A stretch of DNA of 64,000 bases. It comes from Pseudomonas urmiensis. GTDB taxonomy: Bacteria; Pseudomonadota; Gammaproteobacteria; Pseudomonadales; Pseudomonadaceae. How positions within the stretch are numbered: the first letter of the stretch is position 1; every line of letters begins with the position of its first letter. Positions 12,911-33,636 of the stretch are shown piece after piece. The stretch is from assembly GCF_014268815.2 (NCBI RefSeq), contig NZ_JABWRE020000001.1, forward strand, positions 2,981,001 to 3,045,000, in the 5' to 3' direction. The notes below the pieces were generated by a model. That model ran no database searches, was not told where the DNA came from, and worked only from the letters and a program-made list of their open reading frames with translations. The position numbers were made by a program, and so were the translations under genes.

Positions 12911-15151
12911 TCAGAACGAGATGTTCAGCGAGGCAAACAGCGCACGCCCCGGCTGGTTGTAAGTATTGGCCCCCGAACTGCTGGCATTGCCGCCGCGCAG
13001 GATCTGCTTGTCGAAGACGTTGTTCACCCCAACCCGCACGTCATAGTTCTGGTTGAACTTGTACCCGGTGCTGATATCCACCAGGCCGTAGGCTTCGACG
13101 TCCTGCTGGGCGTCCTGGTCGTAGCTCTGCTGGGTGCGGTAGTTGTAGGTCGGCGACTTCTGCTTGCCGAAATAGGTGCCGGCGACCTGGAACGACAGCT
13201 TGTCGGTTGCACGCCAGTCCAGGGTGGTGTTGACGGTGTACTCAGGAATCACCGACAGCGGCTCACCGGTTTCGCGGTTGTCGTTGTCGAGCATCCAGGT
13301 CAGGTTGGTGTTCCAGTCCAGACTTGGGGTCAACTCCATGAAGAAGTTGCCTTCGATGCCTTCGACCCGCGCTTCACCGGCGTTTTCGAACTGGGTCACG
13401 CGGCGGCCGTTGTTGATGGCGTAGAGCACATCGGTGCCGCCGATGATCTTGTTCTTGTAATCGTTGCGGAAGTAGGTCGCGCTGGTACGCCAGGTGCCAC
13501 GGTCGTAGAGCAGGCCGATTTCCTTGTTGACGCTGATCTCCGGCTCGAGGTCGGCGTTACCCTGCAGGTAGCAACCTCCGGAGTTGGTCTGCTGCACGCT
13601 GCACCCTTGACCACGGCTGTAGAGCAGGTAGTTGGGGTTGTACTGGTACAGGTTCGGCGTCTTGTAGGCCCGGGCGATGCCGCCTTTGACGGTCAGGTGA
13701 TCGGTCAACTTGTGCGACAGGTTCAGGCTTGGGCTCAGGTTGTCACCGAACTCCTCGTGGTGATCCAGACGCAGGCCCGGGGTGACGGTGGAGTCGCCGA
13801 CGATGATGTTGTCCTCGACAAACAGCGCATAGCTCTTGGCCGACATCTTCGAGTCGCTACGGTCAAAGCCATTGATGACGTTGTTGCCGTTACCGCTCGG
13901 ATCGAAGCTCTGCGGCCGGAACGAGCCCTGGTCATTGAGGGTTTCGTAGAGGTATTCGCCGCCCAGGGTCAGCACGTGCTCGGTGCTACCCATGGCAAAC
14001 GGCAGGTTCACTTCGCTGCTCAGGCGGGTGTTGCGCAGTCGCGACATGGCCGCGCCGCTGTCATTGATCGCACCTTCCGGGCCGCCGGCCAGGCCTTCGT
14101 TCAGGCGCCAGTTACGGACGTACTCGTAGGCCAGCACGGTCTTGCTGGTACCCCAACTGAAGTCGCCCAGGTGGGTCAGGTCGTAGGTATTGCGCTGCAT
14201 CACGTTGGTCTCATGACCATACAAGTCGGCGATCAGTTCAGGGTTGCCACCACCGTTGCTGTTCATGGTGTCGCCAGCGTAGATGTTGCCCTGGCGGCTG
14301 TAGCCGGCGCTCATTTCCACGCGGTGCTCATCGTTGAGCTTCCAGCTCAGCAGGCCATTGATGTCCTTGTTGCGCACGCCTTCGCGGCCGGCAACCGTCG
14401 AACTGCCAGCATGATCGGCGTTGATGTCCAGGTCATCGGCGTCGGTCTTGGCCAAGCCGCCGTAGACCCGGAAGCCGAGGTTATCGGTCAGTCCGCCACT
14501 GAGGTTGAAGTTGGTCCGGCGGCTGACGCCCTCGGCGCTGTCTTCAGGCATCTGGGTGTAGAAGTTGACGCTGCCCTTGAGCTCGTCGGTGGGACGCTTG
14601 GTGATGATGTTGACCACCCCGCCCATGGCCCCCGAACCATAACGCGCCGCTGCCGGCCCCCGCAGGATCTCGATGCGCTCGACCGCCTCGGCCGGTACCC
14701 AGTTGGTTTCACCGCGGGTGTCACGATCGCCGTTCCACCCGTAGCGCACTGCGTTGCGGGCGTTGGAGGGCTTGCCGTCGATCAGGATCAGGGTGTTTTC
14801 CGGGCCCATGCCGCGCAGGTCGATCTGGCGGTTGTTACCGCGCGCACCGCTGGCGCTGTTGCCGGTCAGGTTGACCCCTGGCTCGCGGCGAATGATGTCG
14901 GACAGGTCATTGGCGGGCGGGCGACGCTTGATGTCTTCTTCAGTGATGATCGACGACCCCAGGGCCTGGCGGGCCTCACGCTCGGCGGTTACCAGAGTGT
15001 CCTGGATCACCAGCGCATTGCTGTCTACTGGCACTTCCAGCACCTCGGCAGACTGCTGCTCCTGGGCGTTGGCCGCAGTCGCAAGCATGACCGGCGAGGC
15101 CAGCGCTACGAAGGCTAGGGCCAGGCCGTTGGGTGAGGTTCTGGATTGCAT
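12911..15151 (-). CDS. FepA/PfeA-type TonB-dependent catecholate siderophore receptor
   Basis: Outer-membrane receptor of 746 residues with a signal peptide (about 1-28, ending A-N-A-Q-E). A TonB-box region and plug domain (about 50-190) contain R-Y-G-W-N-G-D-R-D-T-R-G and L-R-G-P-A-A-A-R-Y-G-S-G, near-diagnostic for the FepA family. The 22-strand barrel ends with an aromatic C-terminal residue (F). Enterobactin-like ferric catecholates are the expected ligand. ATG 15151 has AGGAG eight bases upstream. A Fur-like box lies at 15260-15274. No siderophore biosynthesis genes are adjacent, so it may take up xenosiderophores. Confidence 0.9.
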   Translation of the reverse strand: MQSRTSPNGLALAFVALASPVMLATAANAQEQQSAEVLEVPVDSNALVIQDTLVTAEREARQALGSSIITEEDIKRRPPANDLSDIIRREPGVNLTGNSASGARGNNRQIDLRGMGPENTLILIDGKPSNARNAVRYGWNGDRDTRGETNWVPAEAVERIEILRGPAAARYGSGAMGGVVNIITKRPTDELKGSVNFYTQMPEDSAEGVSRRTNFNLSGGLTDNLGFRVYGGLAKTDADDLDINADHAGSSTVAGREGVRNKDINGLLSWKLNDEHRVEMSAGYSRQGNIYAGDTMNSNGGGNPELIADLYGHETNVMQRNTYDLTHLGDFSWGTSKTVLAYEYVRNWRLNEGLAGGPEGAINDSGAAMSRLRNTRLSSEVNLPFAMGSTEHVLTLGGEYLYETLNDQGSFRPQSFDPSGNGNNVINGFDRSDSKMSAKSYALFVEDNIIVGDSTVTPGLRLDHHEEFGDNLSPSLNLSHKLTDHLTVKGGIARAYKTPNLYQYNPNYLLYSRGQGCSVQQTNSGGCYLQGNADLEPEISVNKEIGLLYDRGTWRTSATYFRNDYKNKIIGGTDVLYAINNGRRVTQFENAGEARVEGIEGNFFMELTPSLDWNTNLTWMLDNDNRETGEPLSVIPEYTVNTTLDWRATDKLSFQVAGTYFGKQKSPTYNYRTQQSYDQDAQQDVEAYGLVDISTGYKFNQNYDVRVGVNNVFDKQILRGGNASSSGANTYNQPGRALFASLNISF

Positions 15152-20994: not shown

Positions 20995-21216
20995 CTAGGC
21001 CGCCACCGTCTCTGAAGCCAGCGCCTCGCGCACCAACGGATCGATCCCCTCCCCCGGATTGGCCTGCATCCACTCGACCAGTTGCCGGCGCATCGCCGGG
21101 GCCCAGAAGCTGTGCAGATGCTGCCTCACCCCTTGCACCGCCAGGGCGCGGTCTGGCTCGCTGTCGAAGTAATGGGCGATCTGGTTGGCCATCTTGATCA
21201 GATTGTCGACGCTCAT
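20995..21216 (-). CDS. fdsD: Formate dehydrogenase delta subunit
   Basis: Small cytosolic protein of 73 residues with the S-V-D-N-L-I-K-M-A-N-Q-I start and the F-W-A-P-A-M-R segment typical of FdsD. It is needed for assembly or stability of the NAD-dependent formate dehydrogenase. Its start overlaps the fdsA stop by four bases (coupled translation). In the Cupriavidus order fdsGBACD an fdsC (sulfurtransferase) gene precedes it; here fdsC is absent. Confidence 0.85.
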   Translation of the reverse strand: MSVDNLIKMANQIAHYFDSEPDRALAVQGVRQHLHSFWAPAMRRQLVEWMQANPGEGIDPLVREALASETVAA

Positions 21217-24098
21217 CGGCGCACCTCGGCAGTCTCCGGCTGGTCGCTGTGGCGGCGCTCCTTGAGCAAGCGCCGTTGTTCGTCACTGAACGCCTGATAG
21301 CGCTGCTGCCAGGCCGAAGGCTGCGACACGCGCACCACTTCCACCGCCGTGACTTTGTACTCGGGGCAGTTGGTGGCCCAGTCGGAGTTGTCGGTGGTGA
21401 TCACGTTGGCGCCCGACTCGGGGAAGTGGAAGGTGGTGTACACCACCCCCGGCGCGACCCGGCTAGTGACCTGCGCACGCAGCACGGTTTGCCCGGCGCG
21501 GCTACCGATGCCGACCCAATCACCCTCGACGATGCCGCGGCTTTCAGCATCGTTTGGGTGGATCTCAAGGCGGTCCTGGGCGTGCCAGGCGACGTTACCG
21601 GTGCGCCGGGTCTGGGCGCCGACGTTGTACTGGCTGAGGATGCGCCCAGTGGTCAGCAACAGCGGATAGCGGCTGTTGACCTTCTCGTCGGTGGGCACGT
21701 AACCGGTGAGCATGAAGCGTCCCTTGCCACGCACGAACTGGCCGATGTGCATGGTCGGGGTGCCGTCGGGCGCGGCCTCGTTGCACGGCCATTGCAGGCT
21801 GCCGTGGCGATCGATCTCGGCGTAACTGACGCGGTGGAAGGTCGGCGTCAGGCGGGCGATTTCATCCATGATCTCTGACGGGTGGCGGTAGTCCATCGGG
21901 TAGCCCAAGGCGTTGGCCAGGGCCACGGTTGCTTCCCAGTCCGCCTTGCCAGCCAGCGGCTCCATAACTTTGCGCACCCGTGAGATACGCCGTTCGGCGT
22001 TGGTGAAGGTGCCGTCTTTTTCCAGGAACGAGCTGCCCGGCAGGAACACATGGGCGAACTTGGCCGTCTCGTTGAGGAAGATGTCCTGCACCACCACGCA
22101 TTCCATGGCGCGCAAGGCGGCAGTGACGTGCTGGGTGTTGGGGTCGCTCTGGGCAATGTCCTCGCCCTGGCAGTACAGGGCCTTGAAGCTGCCATCCAAG
22201 GCCGCTTCGAACATGTTGGGAATACGCAGGCCCGGATCGGGCTGCAAGGTCACGCCCCAGGCCTGCTCGAACTCAGCCCTCACGCCCTCGTTGGAAATGT
22301 GCCGGTAGCCCGGCAGCTCATGCGGGAACGAGCCCATGTCGCAGGAGCCCTGGACGTTGTTCTGGCCACGCAGCGGGTTGACCCCTACCCCTTCGCGACC
22401 AATGTTGCCGGTGGCCATGGCCAGGTTGGCGATGCCCATCACCGCGGTGCTGCCCTGGCTGTGCTCGGTAACGCCCAGCCCGTAGTAGATGGCCGCATTG
22501 GCGCCGTTGGCATACAGCCGGGCAGCAGCGCGGATCTGCTCGGCGGGTACGCCGCAGATCGGCCCGAGCGCTTCAGGGGCGTTATCCGCCAGGCTGACGA
22601 AGTCGCGCCAGCGGGCAAATTCCGCCGCTTCGCAGCGACTATCGACGAAGCCCTGATCGAGCAGCCCTTCCGTGACGATCACATGGGCCAAGGCGTTGAG
22701 CATGGCCACGTTGGTACCTGGGCGCAATTGCAGGTGCAGTTCGGCGCGTGCATGCGGCGAGTCGACCAGATCGATACGCCGTGGGTCGATGACGATCAGT
22801 TTGGCGCCTTGGCGCAGGCGCCGCTTGAGTTGCGAGCCGAACACCGGATGGGCATCGGTGGGGTTGGCGCCGATCACCAGGATCACGTCGGCCAGCATCA
22901 CCGAGTCGAAGCTTTGCGTGCCAGCCGACTCGCCCAAGGTCTGCTTGAGGCCGTAGCCGGTGGGCGAATGACAGACCCGCGCACAGGTATCGACGTTGTT
23001 GTTGCCAAAGGCGGTACGCACCAACTTTTGCACCAGGTAGGCCTCTTCGTTGGTGCAGCGGCTGGAAGTGATCCCGCCAATCGAATCGCGCCCGTACTTG
23101 AGCTGGATGCGGCGCAGCTCGCTGGCCGCATAGCTGACCGCCTCGTCCCAGCTGACCTCTTGCCAAGGGTCGTCGATGTGCTTGCGGATCATTGGCGTGG
23201 TGATGCGATCGGGGTGGGTCGCATAGCCCCAGGCGAAGCGGCCCTTGACGCAGGCATGGCCATGGTTGGCGCCGCCGTTCTTGTCCGGCACCATGCGCAC
23301 CAGCTGATCGCCCTTCATCTCGGCACGGAACGAGCAGCCCACGCCGCAATAGGCGCACGTGGTGATCACTGCCCGCTCCGGCTGGCCGATCTGCACCAGG
23401 CTCTTCTCGGTCAGGGTCGCGGTCGGACAGGCCTGCACACACGCCCCACAAGACACGCACTCGGAATTGAGGAAGTTGTCGCCACCCGCCGCTGCCACTC
23501 GCGAGTCGAAGCCGCGTCCGCTGATAGTCAGGGCGAACGTGCCCTGGATGTCTTCGCAAGCGCGCACGCAGCGGCTGCAGACGATGCACTTGCTTGGCTC
23601 GTAGTCGAAGTAGGGGTTGGAAACATCCTTGGCTTCGGCCAGGTGATTGTCACCGGCATAGCCATAACGCACCTCGCGCAAGCCGACCTGGCCGGCCACG
23701 CTCTGCAGCTCGCAGTTGCCGTTGGCCGAGCAGGTCAGGCAGTCCAGCGGGTGGTCTGAGATGTACAGTTCCATGACGTTGCGCCGCAGGTCAGCCAGGC
23801 GCGCGGTTTGCGTGCGCACCACCATGCCTTCGCTGACCGGCGTGGTGCACGAGGCGGGATAGCCGCGCATGCCGTCGATTTCCACCATGCACATGCGGCA
23901 CGAGCCAAACGCTTCCAGGCTGTCGGTGGCGCACAGTTTGGGGATGCTGGTACCCAGTAGCGCCGCAGCGCGCATCACCGAGGTGCCGGCAGGCACGCTG
24001 ATCGCGCGGCCATCGATATTCAGGCTGACCTGTACCTCGCTATCACGCGCAGGGGTGCCCAGGTCGATGTCACTGGCGGGGTCGAAGAAATTGATCAT
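21213..24098 (-). CDS. fdsA: NAD-dependent formate dehydrogenase, molybdenum alpha subunit
   Basis: Protein of 961 residues. An N-terminal [2Fe-2S] ferredoxin domain (about 20-100, C-R-M-C) is followed by a NuoG-type His-Cys cluster (C-L-T-C-S-A-N-G-N-C-E), two [4Fe-4S] clusters (about 180-250), the molybdopterin-domain cluster C-A-Y-C-G-V-G-C, and the bis-MGD catalytic and C-terminal domains. The catalytic ligand is Cys (V-C-H-S-P), not selenocysteine. It oxidises formate to CO2 and passes electrons to FdsB for NAD reduction. The start overlaps fdsB as ATGA; the ORF upstream of 24098 is inside fdsB. Confidence 0.93.
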   Translation of the reverse strand: MINFFDPASDIDLGTPARDSEVQVSLNIDGRAISVPAGTSVMRAAALLGTSIPKLCATDSLEAFGSCRMCMVEIDGMRGYPASCTTPVSEGMVVRTQTARLADLRRNVMELYISDHPLDCLTCSANGNCELQSVAGQVGLREVRYGYAGDNHLAEAKDVSNPYFDYEPSKCIVCSRCVRACEDIQGTFALTISGRGFDSRVAAAGGDNFLNSECVSCGACVQACPTATLTEKSLVQIGQPERAVITTCAYCGVGCSFRAEMKGDQLVRMVPDKNGGANHGHACVKGRFAWGYATHPDRITTPMIRKHIDDPWQEVSWDEAVSYAASELRRIQLKYGRDSIGGITSSRCTNEEAYLVQKLVRTAFGNNNVDTCARVCHSPTGYGLKQTLGESAGTQSFDSVMLADVILVIGANPTDAHPVFGSQLKRRLRQGAKLIVIDPRRIDLVDSPHARAELHLQLRPGTNVAMLNALAHVIVTEGLLDQGFVDSRCEAAEFARWRDFVSLADNAPEALGPICGVPAEQIRAAARLYANGANAAIYYGLGVTEHSQGSTAVMGIANLAMATGNIGREGVGVNPLRGQNNVQGSCDMGSFPHELPGYRHISNEGVRAEFEQAWGVTLQPDPGLRIPNMFEAALDGSFKALYCQGEDIAQSDPNTQHVTAALRAMECVVVQDIFLNETAKFAHVFLPGSSFLEKDGTFTNAERRISRVRKVMEPLAGKADWEATVALANALGYPMDYRHPSEIMDEIARLTPTFHRVSYAEIDRHGSLQWPCNEAAPDGTPTMHIGQFVRGKGRFMLTGYVPTDEKVNSRYPLLLTTGRILSQYNVGAQTRRTGNVAWHAQDRLEIHPNDAESRGIVEGDWVGIGSRAGQTVLRAQVTSRVAPGVVYTTFHFPESGANVITTDNSDWATNCPEYKVTAVEVVRVSQPSAWQQRYQAFSDEQRRLLKERRHSDQPETAEVRR

Positions 24099-25648
24099 TG
24101 CGCGGCCTCCGGGCTGGCCAGACCGAAGTCGGCAGGGAAATGCTTGAGAGCGCTGGCCACAGGATACGAAGTCATCCCGCCCATGGCGCACAGCGAGCCG
24201 TACTGCAGGGTGTCGCACAGGTCACGCAGCAGGTCGGCCTGCTCTTGGCGATAGGCCGGGTCGCTGCTGGCGATCAAGCGCTCGACCACCTCCACGCCCC
24301 GGGTCGAGCCGATCCGACACGGGGTGCATTTGCCGCACGATTCCTCGGCGCAGAACTGCATGGCAAAACGCGCCATGCCGGCCATGTTCAGGGTGTCATC
24401 GGCGACCACGACTCCGCCATGGCCAATCATCGCGCCGAGGGCGGCGAAGGCCTCGTAGTCCAGCGGTGTGTCGAACTGGCTTGGCGGCACCCAGGCGCCC
24501 AATGGGCCACCGACCTGCGCAGCCTTCAGTGGCCGGCCACTGGCCGTGCCGCCGCCATAGCCCTCGACCAGTTCGCGCAGGGTCAGGCCAAACGCGCGCT
24601 CGACCAGCCCACCCTGGCGGACGTTCCCCGCCAGCTGAAACGGCAAGGTACCCAGCGAACGGCCCATGCCAAAGTCGCGGTAGAACGGCGCGCCCTTGGC
24701 CAGAATGATCGGCACCGAGGCCAGGGTGAGCACGTTATGTACCAGGGTCGGCTGGCCGAACAGGCCTTCGAGCGCCGGCAGTGGCGGCTTGGCGCGGACG
24801 ATCCCGCGCTTGCCTTCGAGCGATTCGAGCAGCGCGGTTTCCTCACCGCAAATGTAGGCGCCAGCCCCCACCCGCACCTCCAGGTCGAAGGCCACGCCGC
24901 TGCCAGTGGCGTCCAGATAACCCGCTTCACGGGCGAGCAGCACTGCCTCGTTCAGCGCCCGAACCGAGTCCGGGTATTCCGAGCGCACATAGATGTAGCC
25001 CTTGCTCGCCCCCACCGCCAGGCCAGCGATGATCATGCCTTCGATCAACAGGAACGGGTCGCCCTCCATCAGCATGCGGTCGGCGAAAGTGCCGGAGTCG
25101 CCCTCGTCGGCGTTGCACACCACGTACTTCTGCCCTGCCGGGGCATCGCGTACGGTGCGCCACTTGATCCCCGCCGGAAACGCCGCGCCGCCACGCCCGC
25201 GCAGGCCGGAGTCGAGCACCGCAGCGACGACATCCGCGCCATCCATCAGCGCCGCCTTGGCCAGCCCGTCAAAACCGCCATGGCTGCGGTAGTCATCCAG
25301 CGACAATGGCCGAGTAATGCCGGCACGGGCGAACAGCAGGCGCTGTTGCGTCTTTAAATATGGAATCTGCTCGACCAAACCCAGTGCCAGCGGATGGCTG
25401 GCGGGATCGGTAGCCAGGGCATCGAGCAGCGAGGCCGTATCCTCGACCGCCACCGGGCCGAAGCCCAAGCGGCCAGCGGCGCTTTCCAGCTCGACCAGCG
25501 GCTCCAGCCAGTACAGGCCACGCGAGCTGGTGCGCAGGATCTGCAGCGCAATTTGCCGACGCTCAGCCTCAGCGGCCAGGGCTGCGGCCAAATGATCGGC
25601 GCCGACCGCACGGGCGACCGAGTCGCAGGGGATAAACAGCTTCAGCAT
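24095..25648 (-). CDS. fdsB: NAD-dependent formate dehydrogenase beta (diaphorase) subunit
   Basis: NuoF-like protein of 517 residues with an N-terminal thioredoxin-like extension (about 1-95). The FMN/NADH site is R-G-R-G-G-A-A-F-P-A-G and the C-terminal [4Fe-4S] motif is E-S-C-G-K-C-T-P-C-R. It transfers electrons from the iron-sulfur chain to NAD. It overlaps fdsG by seven bases and fdsA by four, so the operon is tightly coupled. Confidence 0.93.
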   Translation of the reverse strand: MLKLFIPCDSVARAVGADHLAAALAAEAERRQIALQILRTSSRGLYWLEPLVELESAAGRLGFGPVAVEDTASLLDALATDPASHPLALGLVEQIPYLKTQQRLLFARAGITRPLSLDDYRSHGGFDGLAKAALMDGADVVAAVLDSGLRGRGGAAFPAGIKWRTVRDAPAGQKYVVCNADEGDSGTFADRMLMEGDPFLLIEGMIIAGLAVGASKGYIYVRSEYPDSVRALNEAVLLAREAGYLDATGSGVAFDLEVRVGAGAYICGEETALLESLEGKRGIVRAKPPLPALEGLFGQPTLVHNVLTLASVPIILAKGAPFYRDFGMGRSLGTLPFQLAGNVRQGGLVERAFGLTLRELVEGYGGGTASGRPLKAAQVGGPLGAWVPPSQFDTPLDYEAFAALGAMIGHGGVVVADDTLNMAGMARFAMQFCAEESCGKCTPCRIGSTRGVEVVERLIASSDPAYRQEQADLLRDLCDTLQYGSLCAMGGMTSYPVASALKHFPADFGLASPEAAQ

Positions 25649-26127
25649 GGCTTGGCCTCCTGCAGGCAGCCGTCAACCAGCGTACGCAGGCGCTCAGGGG
25701 TAAGCCGGGCATGCACCTGGCCATCGAGTTCCAGCGCTGGCGAGCAAGCGCAAGCGCCCAGGCAATAGACCGGGCGCAGGCTGACGGCGCCATCGGCGCT
25801 GGTGCCGTGATCATCAAGCCCCAGCTGTTCACGCAGTTGCGCGGCCAGCGCCTCGGCGCCACGGCTCTGGCAGGATTCGGCCCGGCACAGGCGCAAGGTG
25901 TGGCGCGCTGGCGGCGAAGTGCGGAAGTCGTGGTAGAAGCTGATCACCCCGCGCACTTCGGCCTGGCTCAGGTTGAGGGCATGGGCGATCTCAGGTACGG
26001 CGGCATCGGGGATGTAGCCGCTGCCAGCCTGGATAGCATGGAGTATCGGCAACAGCGCACCGGGGGTGTCGCGGTGGTGATCCAGCACACGCTGGATCAC
26101 GGGCAGTTCAAGGGTCGGATCAGGCAT
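25642..26127 (-). CDS. fdsG: NAD-dependent formate dehydrogenase gamma subunit
   Basis: NuoE-like protein of 161 residues carrying one [2Fe-2S] cluster in a thioredoxin-like domain, with ligands in C-R-A-E-S-C and C-L-G-A-C-A-C. ATG 26127 follows GAGG; in-frame codons upstream to 26256 are probably leader. First gene of fdsGBAD. No LysR-type FdsR gene lies upstream, where it is often found; instead there is a 268-base spacer and a toxin-antitoxin operon. Confidence 0.9.
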   Translation of the reverse strand: MPDPTLELPVIQRVLDHHRDTPGALLPILHAIQAGSGYIPDAAVPEIAHALNLSQAEVRGVISFYHDFRTSPPARHTLRLCRAESCQSRGAEALAAQLREQLGLDDHGTSADGAVSLRPVYCLGACACSPALELDGQVHARLTPERLRTLVDGCLQEAKPC

Positions 26128-26395
26128 ACAGCGGACCTCGGCATCACGGACCAGGCTGCACGTGGGCAGGCCTGGCTCCGGCGTGTTCTGCTGCGGTGCA
26201 CCGGCCACGTCACGGGCGCGTAGTCTGCGGGCACCTCCTTGCCCGCGGCCGTGCATCTACGTGCACTGGTCCAAGGGCATCCTCACAGCATGGCACTCCT
26301 GTCGCCTGGGGGTTGCGTGCGAACGACCAGGCGTATCCTGAAACCGACCTGGCCACTCGCCAAGGCCGATTTGCAAAGCCAGCTGCTGGGTAACT
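26128..26395 (-). promoter_or_regulatory. Leader/promoter region of the fds operon with a hairpin enclosing a ribosome-binding-like sequence
   Basis: In the fds direction, CGGGC...GCCCG (26228-26245) forms a stem whose loop holds AAGGAGGT, about 100 bases before fdsG. A second palindrome GTGCATCTACGTGCAC lies at 26251-26266. A molybdenum-cofactor riboswitch or an LTTR site are possibilities I could not test by eye. Confidence 0.3.
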
Positions 26396-27028
26396 TCAAA
26401 TGGCCAAGTGCACCAGACGCTGCAAGTCGCCGATCACCGCAGGGTCACGCGCTTCGAGTACATCGGCCTGAATACGCGCGATCACGGCCTTGAGCAGCTC
26501 TGTCTGGCTCATCTGGGTGGCCTGCAGCAACGCCAGGTAATCCTGGGCCACATGGGCATTGACCTTCATCGACAGCCGCCGCGTGGCTGCAGGTGTTGCG
26601 AGCGCACGCATGTGCAGTTGCTGCTCCAGCGCCCCACTGAACGTCGCATGCGCCGCCGGCAGCCCCGCCGCGCCTTGGGCGTGAGCCAAAGCATGAAAAT
26701 AGTAGCCGAGGAACAGCTTGCGCAGGCTGGCCCCCGCATCGTTGCTCACGGCGTGCATAGCCGCGTCCAGTACATCCAGATAGACCGCCGGCAGGCGCGC
26801 CTCGATCGACTTGAGCTGCTGCTTGCGCGCCTCGCGAATCGCCGGCGTGGATTGCGGCGGGATCGCGACCACGCTATCGCAGCCCAGGCATACCCCCACC
26901 AGCACGTCCCTGGCCTGGCCTTGGCTATCGCTGAACGGCACGTCGCGACGCACATAGCGCATCTGCACCAGTGCCTGGCACTGCTCACAGAGCGCCTTGC
27001 CGGTGTCGCCTTCGAAGAAGATCTTCAT
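26396..27028 (-). CDS. MqsA-like antitoxin candidate with N-terminal zinc domain
   Basis: Protein of 210 residues. Its N-terminal 55 residues hold C14-X2-C17 and C47-X2-C50, spaced almost exactly like the zinc ligands of MqsA (CxxC-X30-CxxC). The remainder is helical and does not show the HTH_3 domain of MqsA; it may be a different DNA-binding or dimerisation module. It starts ten bases after an MqsR-like toxin, the toxin-first order of mqsRA. The function is inferred from architecture and neighbour, and no named family is recognised for the C-terminal region. Confidence 0.6.
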   Translation of the reverse strand: MKIFFEGDTGKALCEQCQALVQMRYVRRDVPFSDSQGQARDVLVGVCLGCDSVVAIPPQSTPAIREARKQQLKSIEARLPAVYLDVLDAAMHAVSNDAGASLRKLFLGYYFHALAHAQGAAGLPAAHATFSGALEQQLHMRALATPAATRRLSMKVNAHVAQDYLALLQATQMSQTELLKAVIARIQADVLEARDPAVIGDLQRLVHLAI

Positions 27029-27038
27029 GATCTGTTAC

Positions 27039-27329
27039 TCACTGATGAACACTGACGAACCAGGTATCTGGCTCGATGAAATAAAACTTGATGTACCACC
27101 CCAGGCGCTTGAGCACGTGCACATCGATGGCCGGCACGGCGTGGTGAGGGCTGCAGTGGTGATGGACGCCGCTGCAGGAGCGAATAACGCGAATGAGCAC
27201 CTCAGCCGTAACCTCGCCCATCGCTAGCAGGTTTTTCACCTCGATATCGCCACGCGCAACATGCAGGTAGTTACCGGACTGCAGCGCAGCGATCACATCG
27301 TGCCGGGCCTTCCTGAACCCATTTTTCAT
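27039..27329 (-). CDS. MqsR-like toxin candidate
   Basis: Protein of 96 residues, close to the 98 of MqsR. The order of elements follows MqsR: a basic N-terminal helix, a G-E-V-T-A-E-V-L helix, then strands ending Y-I-K-F-Y-F-I and F-V-S-V-H-Q, comparable to the Y-L-K-I-T-V-I and L-I-V-S-F-K ending of MqsR. A His/Cys-rich segment (S-G-V-H-H-H-C-S-P-H-H, about 53-63) is distinctive. If it is a toxin, mRNA interferase activity is expected. ATG 27329 has AGGG six bases upstream. It is co-directional with the zinc-domain antitoxin, ten bases apart. Confidence 0.6.
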   Translation of the reverse strand: MKNGFRKARHDVIAALQSGNYLHVARGDIEVKNLLAMGEVTAEVLIRVIRSCSGVHHHCSPHHAVPAIDVHVLKRLGWYIKFYFIEPDTWFVSVHQ

Positions 27330-27344
27330 AGCCATCCCTGCCAA

Positions 27345-27360
27345 TACGAAAATCATCGTA
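27345..27360. promoter_or_regulatory. Palindromic operator candidate of the toxin-antitoxin operon
   Basis: TACGA (27345-27349) and TCGTA (27356-27360) form a perfect inverted repeat with a six-base spacer, 16 bases upstream of the toxin start. Antitoxin autorepression through such a site is usual. Confidence 0.55.
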
Positions 27361-31746: not shown

Positions 31747-33636
31747 ATGACACCCTCTGCCGATCTCCTCCCCCCCGTCTTGGCCGGGCCTGTGCTGCGC
31801 CGCCTGGAACCCCAGCGCCTGGCCATCTGGCTGGTCGGTTCGCAACCGCTTGATCCGCGCTTTATTCTCGACTGCCCAGGCATCCAGGCGAGCGTTGACT
31901 GCCAAGTGATTGCAATGGGTACGCACGCATTCGTACACCTGCTGGATGTCCACTTCGACACCCCGTTGCCGTGCAACGTGGCGATTGAATACGACCTGCA
32001 GTTGAGCACCGGTGAAGGCATTGCCGCCTGGGCACCGCACCTGCTGTATCCCGGCGCCAGCCGGCCAAGCGTGGTCTTGCGCGAGCGGATCGAACAGCTG
32101 CTCCACGGCTCGTGCCGTAAGCCTCATCATCCGGCTGCCGATGGCCTGCTCTGCGCCGACCGGCTACTGCAAGACTGCGCCAGCCCCGAGCAGCGCCCTG
32201 CCCTGCTACTGATGAGCGGCGACCAGATCTATGCCGACGATGTCGCCGGCCCAATGCTGCGCGCCATCCATCGTTTGATCGAGCGCCTAGGCCTGTTCGA
32301 GGAAGCGCTGGACGGCGCCTTGGTCGACGACAGCACAGCGCTGTATCGCCATCCAGCTTGCTATTACCACCGCGCCGACCTGCTGCCGGCTCAGGAGAGC
32401 AACGAGAGCCTGCGCGAACGCTTCTTCGGCGGCAAGCGCAAGCCGATTTTCTCTTCGAGCAACGCCGACAACCACCTGGTGACCTTCGCTGAGGTGATGG
32501 CGATGTATCTGTTGGTCTGGTCGCCGACGCCGTGGGCGCTGGTAGACATGAATATGCCCGAGGGCCTCACCAAACAGCGGCAGGCGCGCTACCACGCAGA
32601 GCTGCCGCTGATCGAAGCCTTCGCTGCTGGCCTTGGCCAAGTAGCACGGGTAATGGCGCACCTGCCCTGCCTGATGATCTTCGACGACCACGATATTACC
32701 GACGACTGGAACCTTTCGGCGCAATGGGAAGAAACGGCCTACGGCCATCCCTTCTCGCGACGGATCATCGGTAATGCCTTGCTTGGCTACTTGCTCTGCC
32801 AGGGTTGGGGCAACGATCCAGATAGCTGCAAAGAACTGGTCCAACACTGCGCGACGCTGGGCGATAACAGTGTTGAGCGGCATCTGAACAAACAGGCTCA
32901 GGACGCCCTGATTGGCGAGCTGCTGCGCTTTCAGGGCTGGCAGTACGATCTGCCGAGCAATCCGCCGCTGTTGGTGCTCGACACCCGCACCCGGCGCTGG
33001 CGCAGTGAAAGCAGCCTGAAAAAGCCTTCCGGCTTGCTCGACTGGGAGGCGCTGAGTGAACTGCAGCAGTCGCTGCTCGATCACCCGTCGGCGATTATCG
33101 TCTCACCGGCGCCGATCTTTGGGGTAAAGCTGATCGAAACCGTGCAGCGGGTATTCAGCTGGTGCGGTTATCCGCTACTGGTGGATGCGGAAAACTGGAT
33201 GGCCCACCGCGGTGCTGCGCAGGTGATCCTGAATATCTTCCGCCATTCGCGCACACCGGGGCATTACGTGGTGCTGTCGGGGGATGTGCACTATTCGTTC
33301 GTCTATGAGGTGATGATCCGCCATCGCCAGCGCAATCCGCACCTGTGGCAGATCACCAGCAGCGGGATCAAGAACGAGTTTCCCAAGCGTTTGCTGGATG
33401 TGCTCGACAGGCTTAATCGCTGGCTGTATTCGCCACGCTCGCCGCTCAACTGGTTTACCAAGCGGCGCTTGATGGAAGTGGCGCCGCGCTTGCCGAGCCG
33501 CAGTGAGGCTGGCGAGCGCTTGTGGAATAGCGCCGGCCTGGGGCAGGTGTTTTTCAATGCACAGGGGCAACCGGAGCGGGTGTTTCAGTTGAATGCCGAT
33601 GGCTCGACGGCGAATGAGTTTGTCCGGGATCAGTGA
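31747..33636 (+). CDS. PhoD-like metallophosphatase-family protein
   Basis: Protein of 629 residues without a signal peptide. Metal-binding motifs of the calcineurin-like PhoD fold are visible: S-G-D-Q-I-Y-A-D-D (about 157-165), F-D-D-H-D-I-T-D-D-W (about 315-324) and L-S-G-D-V-H-Y-S-F (about 510-518). Secreted PhoD enzymes are phosphodiesterases/alkaline phosphatases; this cytosolic, longer type has no assigned substrate. ATG 31747 is used because upstream in-frame codons overlap a REP spacer. Isolated between two REP elements. Confidence 0.82.
   Translation: MTPSADLLPPVLAGPVLRRLEPQRLAIWLVGSQPLDPRFILDCPGIQASVDCQVIAMGTHAFVHLLDVHFDTPLPCNVAIEYDLQLSTGEGIAAWAPHLLYPGASRPSVVLRERIEQLLHGSCRKPHHPAADGLLCADRLLQDCASPEQRPALLLMSGDQIYADDVAGPMLRAIHRLIERLGLFEEALDGALVDDSTALYRHPACYYHRADLLPAQESNESLRERFFGGKRKPIFSSSNADNHLVTFAEVMAMYLLVWSPTPWALVDMNMPEGLTKQRQARYHAELPLIEAFAAGLGQVARVMAHLPCLMIFDDHDITDDWNLSAQWEETAYGHPFSRRIIGNALLGYLLCQGWGNDPDSCKELVQHCATLGDNSVERHLNKQAQDALIGELLRFQGWQYDLPSNPPLLVLDTRTRRWRSESSLKKPSGLLDWEALSELQQSLLDHPSAIIVSPAPIFGVKLIETVQRVFSWCGYPLLVDAENWMAHRGAAQVILNIFRHSRTPGHYVVLSGDVHYSFVYEVMIRHRQRNPHLWQITSSGIKNEFPKRLLDVLDRLNRWLYSPRSPLNWFTKRRLMEVAPRLPSRSEAGERLWNSAGLGQVFFNAQGQPERVFQLNADGSTANEFVRDQ

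Follow-up and report, generated by a model that had tools for sequence, protein, structure and literature searches.

What kind of system is encoded by two adjacent small genes of Pseudomonas urmiensis, one for a protein of 96 residues and the next for a protein of 210 residues? The genes lie in a stretch of 64,000 nucleotides (contig NZ_JABWRE020000001.1, positions 2,981,001 to 3,045,000), hereafter called the window, within an assembly of 5.79 Mb in 9 contigs. We suggest, with a probability of about 0.8, that they form a type II toxin-antitoxin module in which a ribonuclease (RNase) with the MqsR fold is neutralised by a zinc domain and the operon is repressed by a ribbon-helix-helix (RHH) domain. 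In agreement with a first-pass annotation, made from the sequence alone, that had rated the pair its best candidate for an undescribed system, the family was found neither in the libraries nor in the literature searched. The pair is real and conserved, has a conserved operator and very probably constitutes a type II toxin-antitoxin system.

Both genes are located on the minus strand, the toxin-like gene (27039..27329) first and the antitoxin-like gene (26396..27028) second, with an intergenic gap of exactly 10 bases, so that the sizes, the spacing and the toxin-first order, as in mqsRA, are those first reported. The toxin frame is open for 129 residues, or 96 when counted from its ATG; we favour the latter start because the sequence AGGG (27336..27339, minus strand), from its sequence a likely ribosome-binding site, is situated 6 bases ahead of it and because most relatives among the matches listed are also 96 residues long. 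The closest named relatives of both proteins are from Pseudomonas. Searches with the small and the large protein identified 53 and 178 relatives (E <= 1e-3), and a profile built from 31 diverse small proteins extended the former to 702 at the same threshold. Among the matches listed the name was nearly always "hypothetical protein", with stray labels such as HNH endonuclease, DUF4258 and ArsR regulator. The median pairwise ratio of nonsynonymous to synonymous substitutions (dN/dS) was 0.22 for the toxin (23 sequences) and 0.24 for the antitoxin (30 sequences) in loci L001-L031, which are mostly from Pseudomonas with three from Paraburkholderia, after 128 of 253 toxin pairs and 189 of 435 antitoxin pairs had been set aside as saturated. 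These values indicate that both genes are maintained as proteins and, together with the large number of relatives, that the pair is real beyond chance.

The predicted structure of the toxin-like protein matches the MqsR (RelE-like) fold, with BrnT as the second match. The earlier description of this protein as MqsR-like is thereby borne out for the fold but not for membership of the Pfam family, since PF15723 gave no match to the window protein, to 43 members of A1, to 31 of A3 or to 7 further relatives; nor did the BrnT family profile match the window protein or the toxin members scanned. An hhalign comparison of 69 toxins with 23 complete MqsR sequences yielded a probability of 1.8%, and 7 of 200 column shuffles scored equally high. 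Residues L16, R26, H63, H71, W78, Y79, K81, F91, S93, V94 and H95 never varied among 69 distinct intact toxins, and the H-H-H-C-S-P-H-H segment that had been put forward as a signature did not hold up, since only its last histidine (H63) belongs to this set. MqsR requires Lys56 and Tyr81 and, unlike other RNases, is reported to have no conserved His/Glu pair (PMC9636575). Y79 aligns with Tyr81 in the weak, non-significant profile alignment, while no invariant lysine is seen at the position expected for Lys56, and the three invariant histidines suggest a chemistry that would be unlike that of MqsR. We infer that the toxin is an MqsR-fold endoribonuclease of the RelE/BECR class, with an active site probably formed from H63, H71, Y79, K81 and H95.

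The antitoxin contains four cysteines (C14, C17, C47 and C50) in a CxxC-x29-CxxC arrangement, confirming the motif first noted and its near-identity in spacing to E. coli MqsA, in which Cys3, Cys6, Cys37 and Cys40 are separated by x30 (PMC2791442). In the predicted model the comparison with MqsA is sustained, with the N-terminal zinc domain (residues 1-72, 26813..27028, minus strand) adopting the MqsA fold. At the sequence level, the score of this domain against 18 MqsA N-termini was equalled by 53 of 200 shuffles in which the cysteines were kept, and the NCBIfam MqsA-family model (TIGR03830) matched 3 of the 74 antitoxins, weakly and with an E of 0.0054 at best, and not that of the window. 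The absence of HTH_3 was also corroborated, with no helix-turn-helix (HTH) family, including HTH_3 and HTH-XRE, matching the window antitoxin. Instead, the model shows a C-terminal half with a pair of strand-helix-helix units in the same chain (residues 73-116, 26681..26812, and residues 149-192, 26453..26584, both on the minus strand, the latter with the strand RRLSMKV) that can be superposed on TraY. This part is thus predicted to be a single-chain tandem RHH like those of TraY and VirC2, and no new fold, as the idea of a new module had implied; a tandem RHH in such an antitoxin is without precedent in the literature searched. Pfam RHH_3 matched only 3 of 74 antitoxin members, with a best E of 0.065.

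Among known systems, the pair most invites comparison with MqsR/MqsA (YgiU/YgiT) of E. coli, with which it shares the toxin-first order, the predicted toxin fold, an antitoxin larger than its toxin, and the combination of an N-terminal four-cysteine zinc domain with a C-terminal DNA-binding part. It differs in having RHH rather than HTH-XRE, a cysteine spacing of x29 rather than x30, invariant histidines, and neither a PF15723 match nor a significant profile-profile match. That the pair works like MqsRA is well supported; that it is MqsRA is not, since kinship at the sequence level is unproven. The F-plasmid protein TraY and the Ti-plasmid protein VirC2 are conjugation proteins that, to our knowledge, have no toxin partner, and their matched chains lack the zinc domain. 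In MqsR:PanA, too, a new combination of domains pairs an MqsR-type toxin with an antitoxin that contains a zinc domain, and this domain is responsible for neutralisation, although PanA carries HTH and Panacea where the present antitoxin has a tandem RHH (PMC10440598). BrnT/BrnA also has a BECR toxin first and an antitoxin with a C-terminal RHH, and in DUF4258 toxins fused to MqsA a further BECR family is linked to antitoxins of the MqsA type (both in PMC11980606). The antitoxin described here differs from BrnA in its zinc domain and in forming the RHH dimer fold from a single chain, and PF14076 had no match among the toxin members scanned. One relative, P0243, carries the UniRef label DUF4258, which was not reproduced in the family scan. 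No report of an MqsR-like toxin whose antitoxin combines a zinc domain with an RHH was found in the open articles of PubMed Central, subscription papers and preprints being outside the scope of this search.

These comparisons leave room for a credible, though in our estimate not the most probable, alternative in which the pair is a toxin-antitoxin system with a separate BECR-fold toxin that has no special kinship to MqsR and may have a different target or a different chemistry. The missing sequence link to MqsR, the three invariant histidines in place of Lys56 and Tyr81 (PMC9636575), and the RHH antitoxins that accompany BrnT, the second fold match (PMC11980606), all point in this direction; the first fold match is to MqsR itself.

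Upstream of the pair, at 27345..27360, is a palindrome, TACGA-N6-TCGTA, that we propose as the operator; it is 16-31 bases away from the ATG of the toxin gene. The first-pass annotation ended at 27360, which is the end of this palindrome. It overlooked the proposed operator, as well as the one-way toxin decay described below. For the analysis of its conservation we used 81 loci, consisting of the window locus and 80 retained from 103 antitoxin matches. The palindrome was present within 520 nucleotides upstream of the antitoxin in 73 of the 81 loci, from Pseudomonas to Rhizobiales, and in all 59 loci with an intact toxin; the 75 sites (two loci have two) were the only ones in 938,715 bases. When spacers of 2 to 11 were tried, a spacer of 6 occurred 75 times, one of 11 once, and no other was present. 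All 71 distinct regions ahead of a near-complete toxin contained the sequence without a mismatch. The toxin was damaged or missing in each of the 8 loci that lack the palindrome (L006, L017, L033, L045, L062, L064, L066 and L075), although in L075 the contig starts at the expected place of the palindrome. It was also found in 25 of the 26 loci identified via the toxin in Pseudomonas genomes (L093-L118), the exception (L118) having a truncated toxin, and in two far relatives, exactly in L185 and with one mismatch in L186. The genome of P. urmiensis has one exact copy, compared to three of a backward control pattern. The window as a whole contains 3 palindrome-like sites including the exact one; 100 shuffles averaged 0.29 and none reached 3.

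In many loci the palindrome overlaps a -10-like hexamer. TATAAT was matched at 4 or more of 6 positions in 54 of the 75 sites, with two positions supplied by the palindrome itself; at least 4 matches to the -35 element were found at 30 sites and both elements at 25. The window palindrome has 3/6 and 2/6 matches to the -10 and -35 elements, respectively. Judged by sequence, the palindrome is a putative autoregulatory operator at the operon promoter. Two Janthinobacterium loci (L054 and L056) contain two copies 31 bp apart, which precede the start of the antitoxin gene by about 350 and 320 bases.

The two genes form an operon and are conserved together, but they do not decay alike. Of the 81 loci, 59 had an intact toxin with a full antitoxin, in 19 a full antitoxin was accompanied by a damaged toxin (in one of these, L075, cut by the contig end), both genes were damaged in 3 (L017, L064 and L069), and none combined an intact toxin with an antitoxin that was not full. 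The use of antitoxin patterns to choose these loci favours those that retain the antitoxin; a survey of 398 Pseudomonas genomes is less biased. The toxin profile matched 27 and the antitoxin 33 of these; all 27 toxin genomes had a full antitoxin, and in the other six the antitoxin was full in one (G286) and partial in five. An in-frame stop was reported for four of the 27 toxins, one of which (L103) proved open over the model on re-reading, and a further toxin was truncated. Among 398 genomes across the phylum, 3 had the toxin. These 3 also had the antitoxin, and a fourth genome had a partial one; 1 of the 3 toxins has a stop beside a full antitoxin. A needed antidote predicts such a one-way pattern, although a dispensable accessory gene would also yield part of it. 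Two entries in the protein database, P0017 and P0045, look like alleles of almost the same toxin that have suffered frameshifts, and breakage thus seems to occur even among close strains. A canonical MqsR gene in one Pseudomonas genome (G008) is itself in two pieces (L091 and L092), another damaged toxin.

A mechanism consistent with these features is one in which the MqsA-N-like zinc domain would bind and block the toxin, and the RHH dimer fold, held in a single chain as in TraY, would bind TACGA-N6-TCGTA just upstream of the toxin gene. Given the 11 bp between the centres of the half-sites, two antitoxin chains would probably bind the same face of the DNA, about one helical turn from each other. 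Bound antitoxin would repress the operon, and its loss would free the toxin to cut RNA and stop growth.

The role of such a module is a separate matter, and anti-phage defence or stabilisation of mobile elements, rather than a stress response, seems to us unlikely. Among 72,556 plasmid records, 12 had a match to the antitoxin, 8 of them covering at least 80% of it, and the pair with its operator was present in both plasmids read, one from Rhizobium and one from Acetobacter; five IMG/VR contigs also carry pair and operator. Against this, none of 50,697 phage records matched the antitoxin, no PADLOC model matches the pair, and a homologue of the window neighbour at 25642-26256 was found near the pair in 16 of the 89 loci compared, all from Pseudomonas, so that the pair is probably resident in the chromosome there. 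Less probable still is that there is no toxin-antitoxin system, only an autorepressor with a small, dispensable and often lost accessory protein such as a sensing partner: antitoxin and operator do often outlast a damaged toxin (the operator is exact in 14 of the 22 loci of the 81 without an intact toxin), but the fold match of the small protein is to a toxin, the single exact operator in the genome leaves no regulon visible, the distribution is patchy with plasmid copies, and no intact toxin was seen without a full antitoxin.

Taken as a type II toxin-antitoxin module, the pair is widespread and yet unnamed in the family libraries searched, and its predicted antitoxin couples a zinc domain of the MqsA type with a DNA-binding fold that the literature searched does not report alongside such a domain. 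With somewhat less than even odds, we picture a long-lived lineage of MqsR-fold RNases with a histidine-centred active site, a single-chain RHH antitoxin that needs no dimer for its DNA-binding fold, and ten operator bases fixed from Pseudomonas to Rhizobiales and Acetobacter. The pair offers a convenient test system, with a near-invariant operator, a candidate histidine active site that can be compared with the non-canonical MqsR, and natural lineages with a broken toxin and a retained antitoxin.

On the 18-kb Acetobacter pasteurianus plasmid Apa386Bp2 (L182), the pair and operator have genes of the Abi family and of DUF2442 close by. The megaplasmid of Cupriavidus metallidurans CH34 (L181) contains a remnant with the zinc domain only and without the operator. 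In the window, an antisense open reading frame of 215 codons (26408-27055, plus strand) overlies the antitoxin gene and was taken to be a shadow of the conserved gene, and the one-mismatch copies of the palindrome (14113-14128 and 31920-31935) are inside long open reading frames. Beside the pair, the minus-strand genes at 21213-26256 are presumably formate dehydrogenase-like, the neighbour at 25642-26256 being one that we take to be fdsG.
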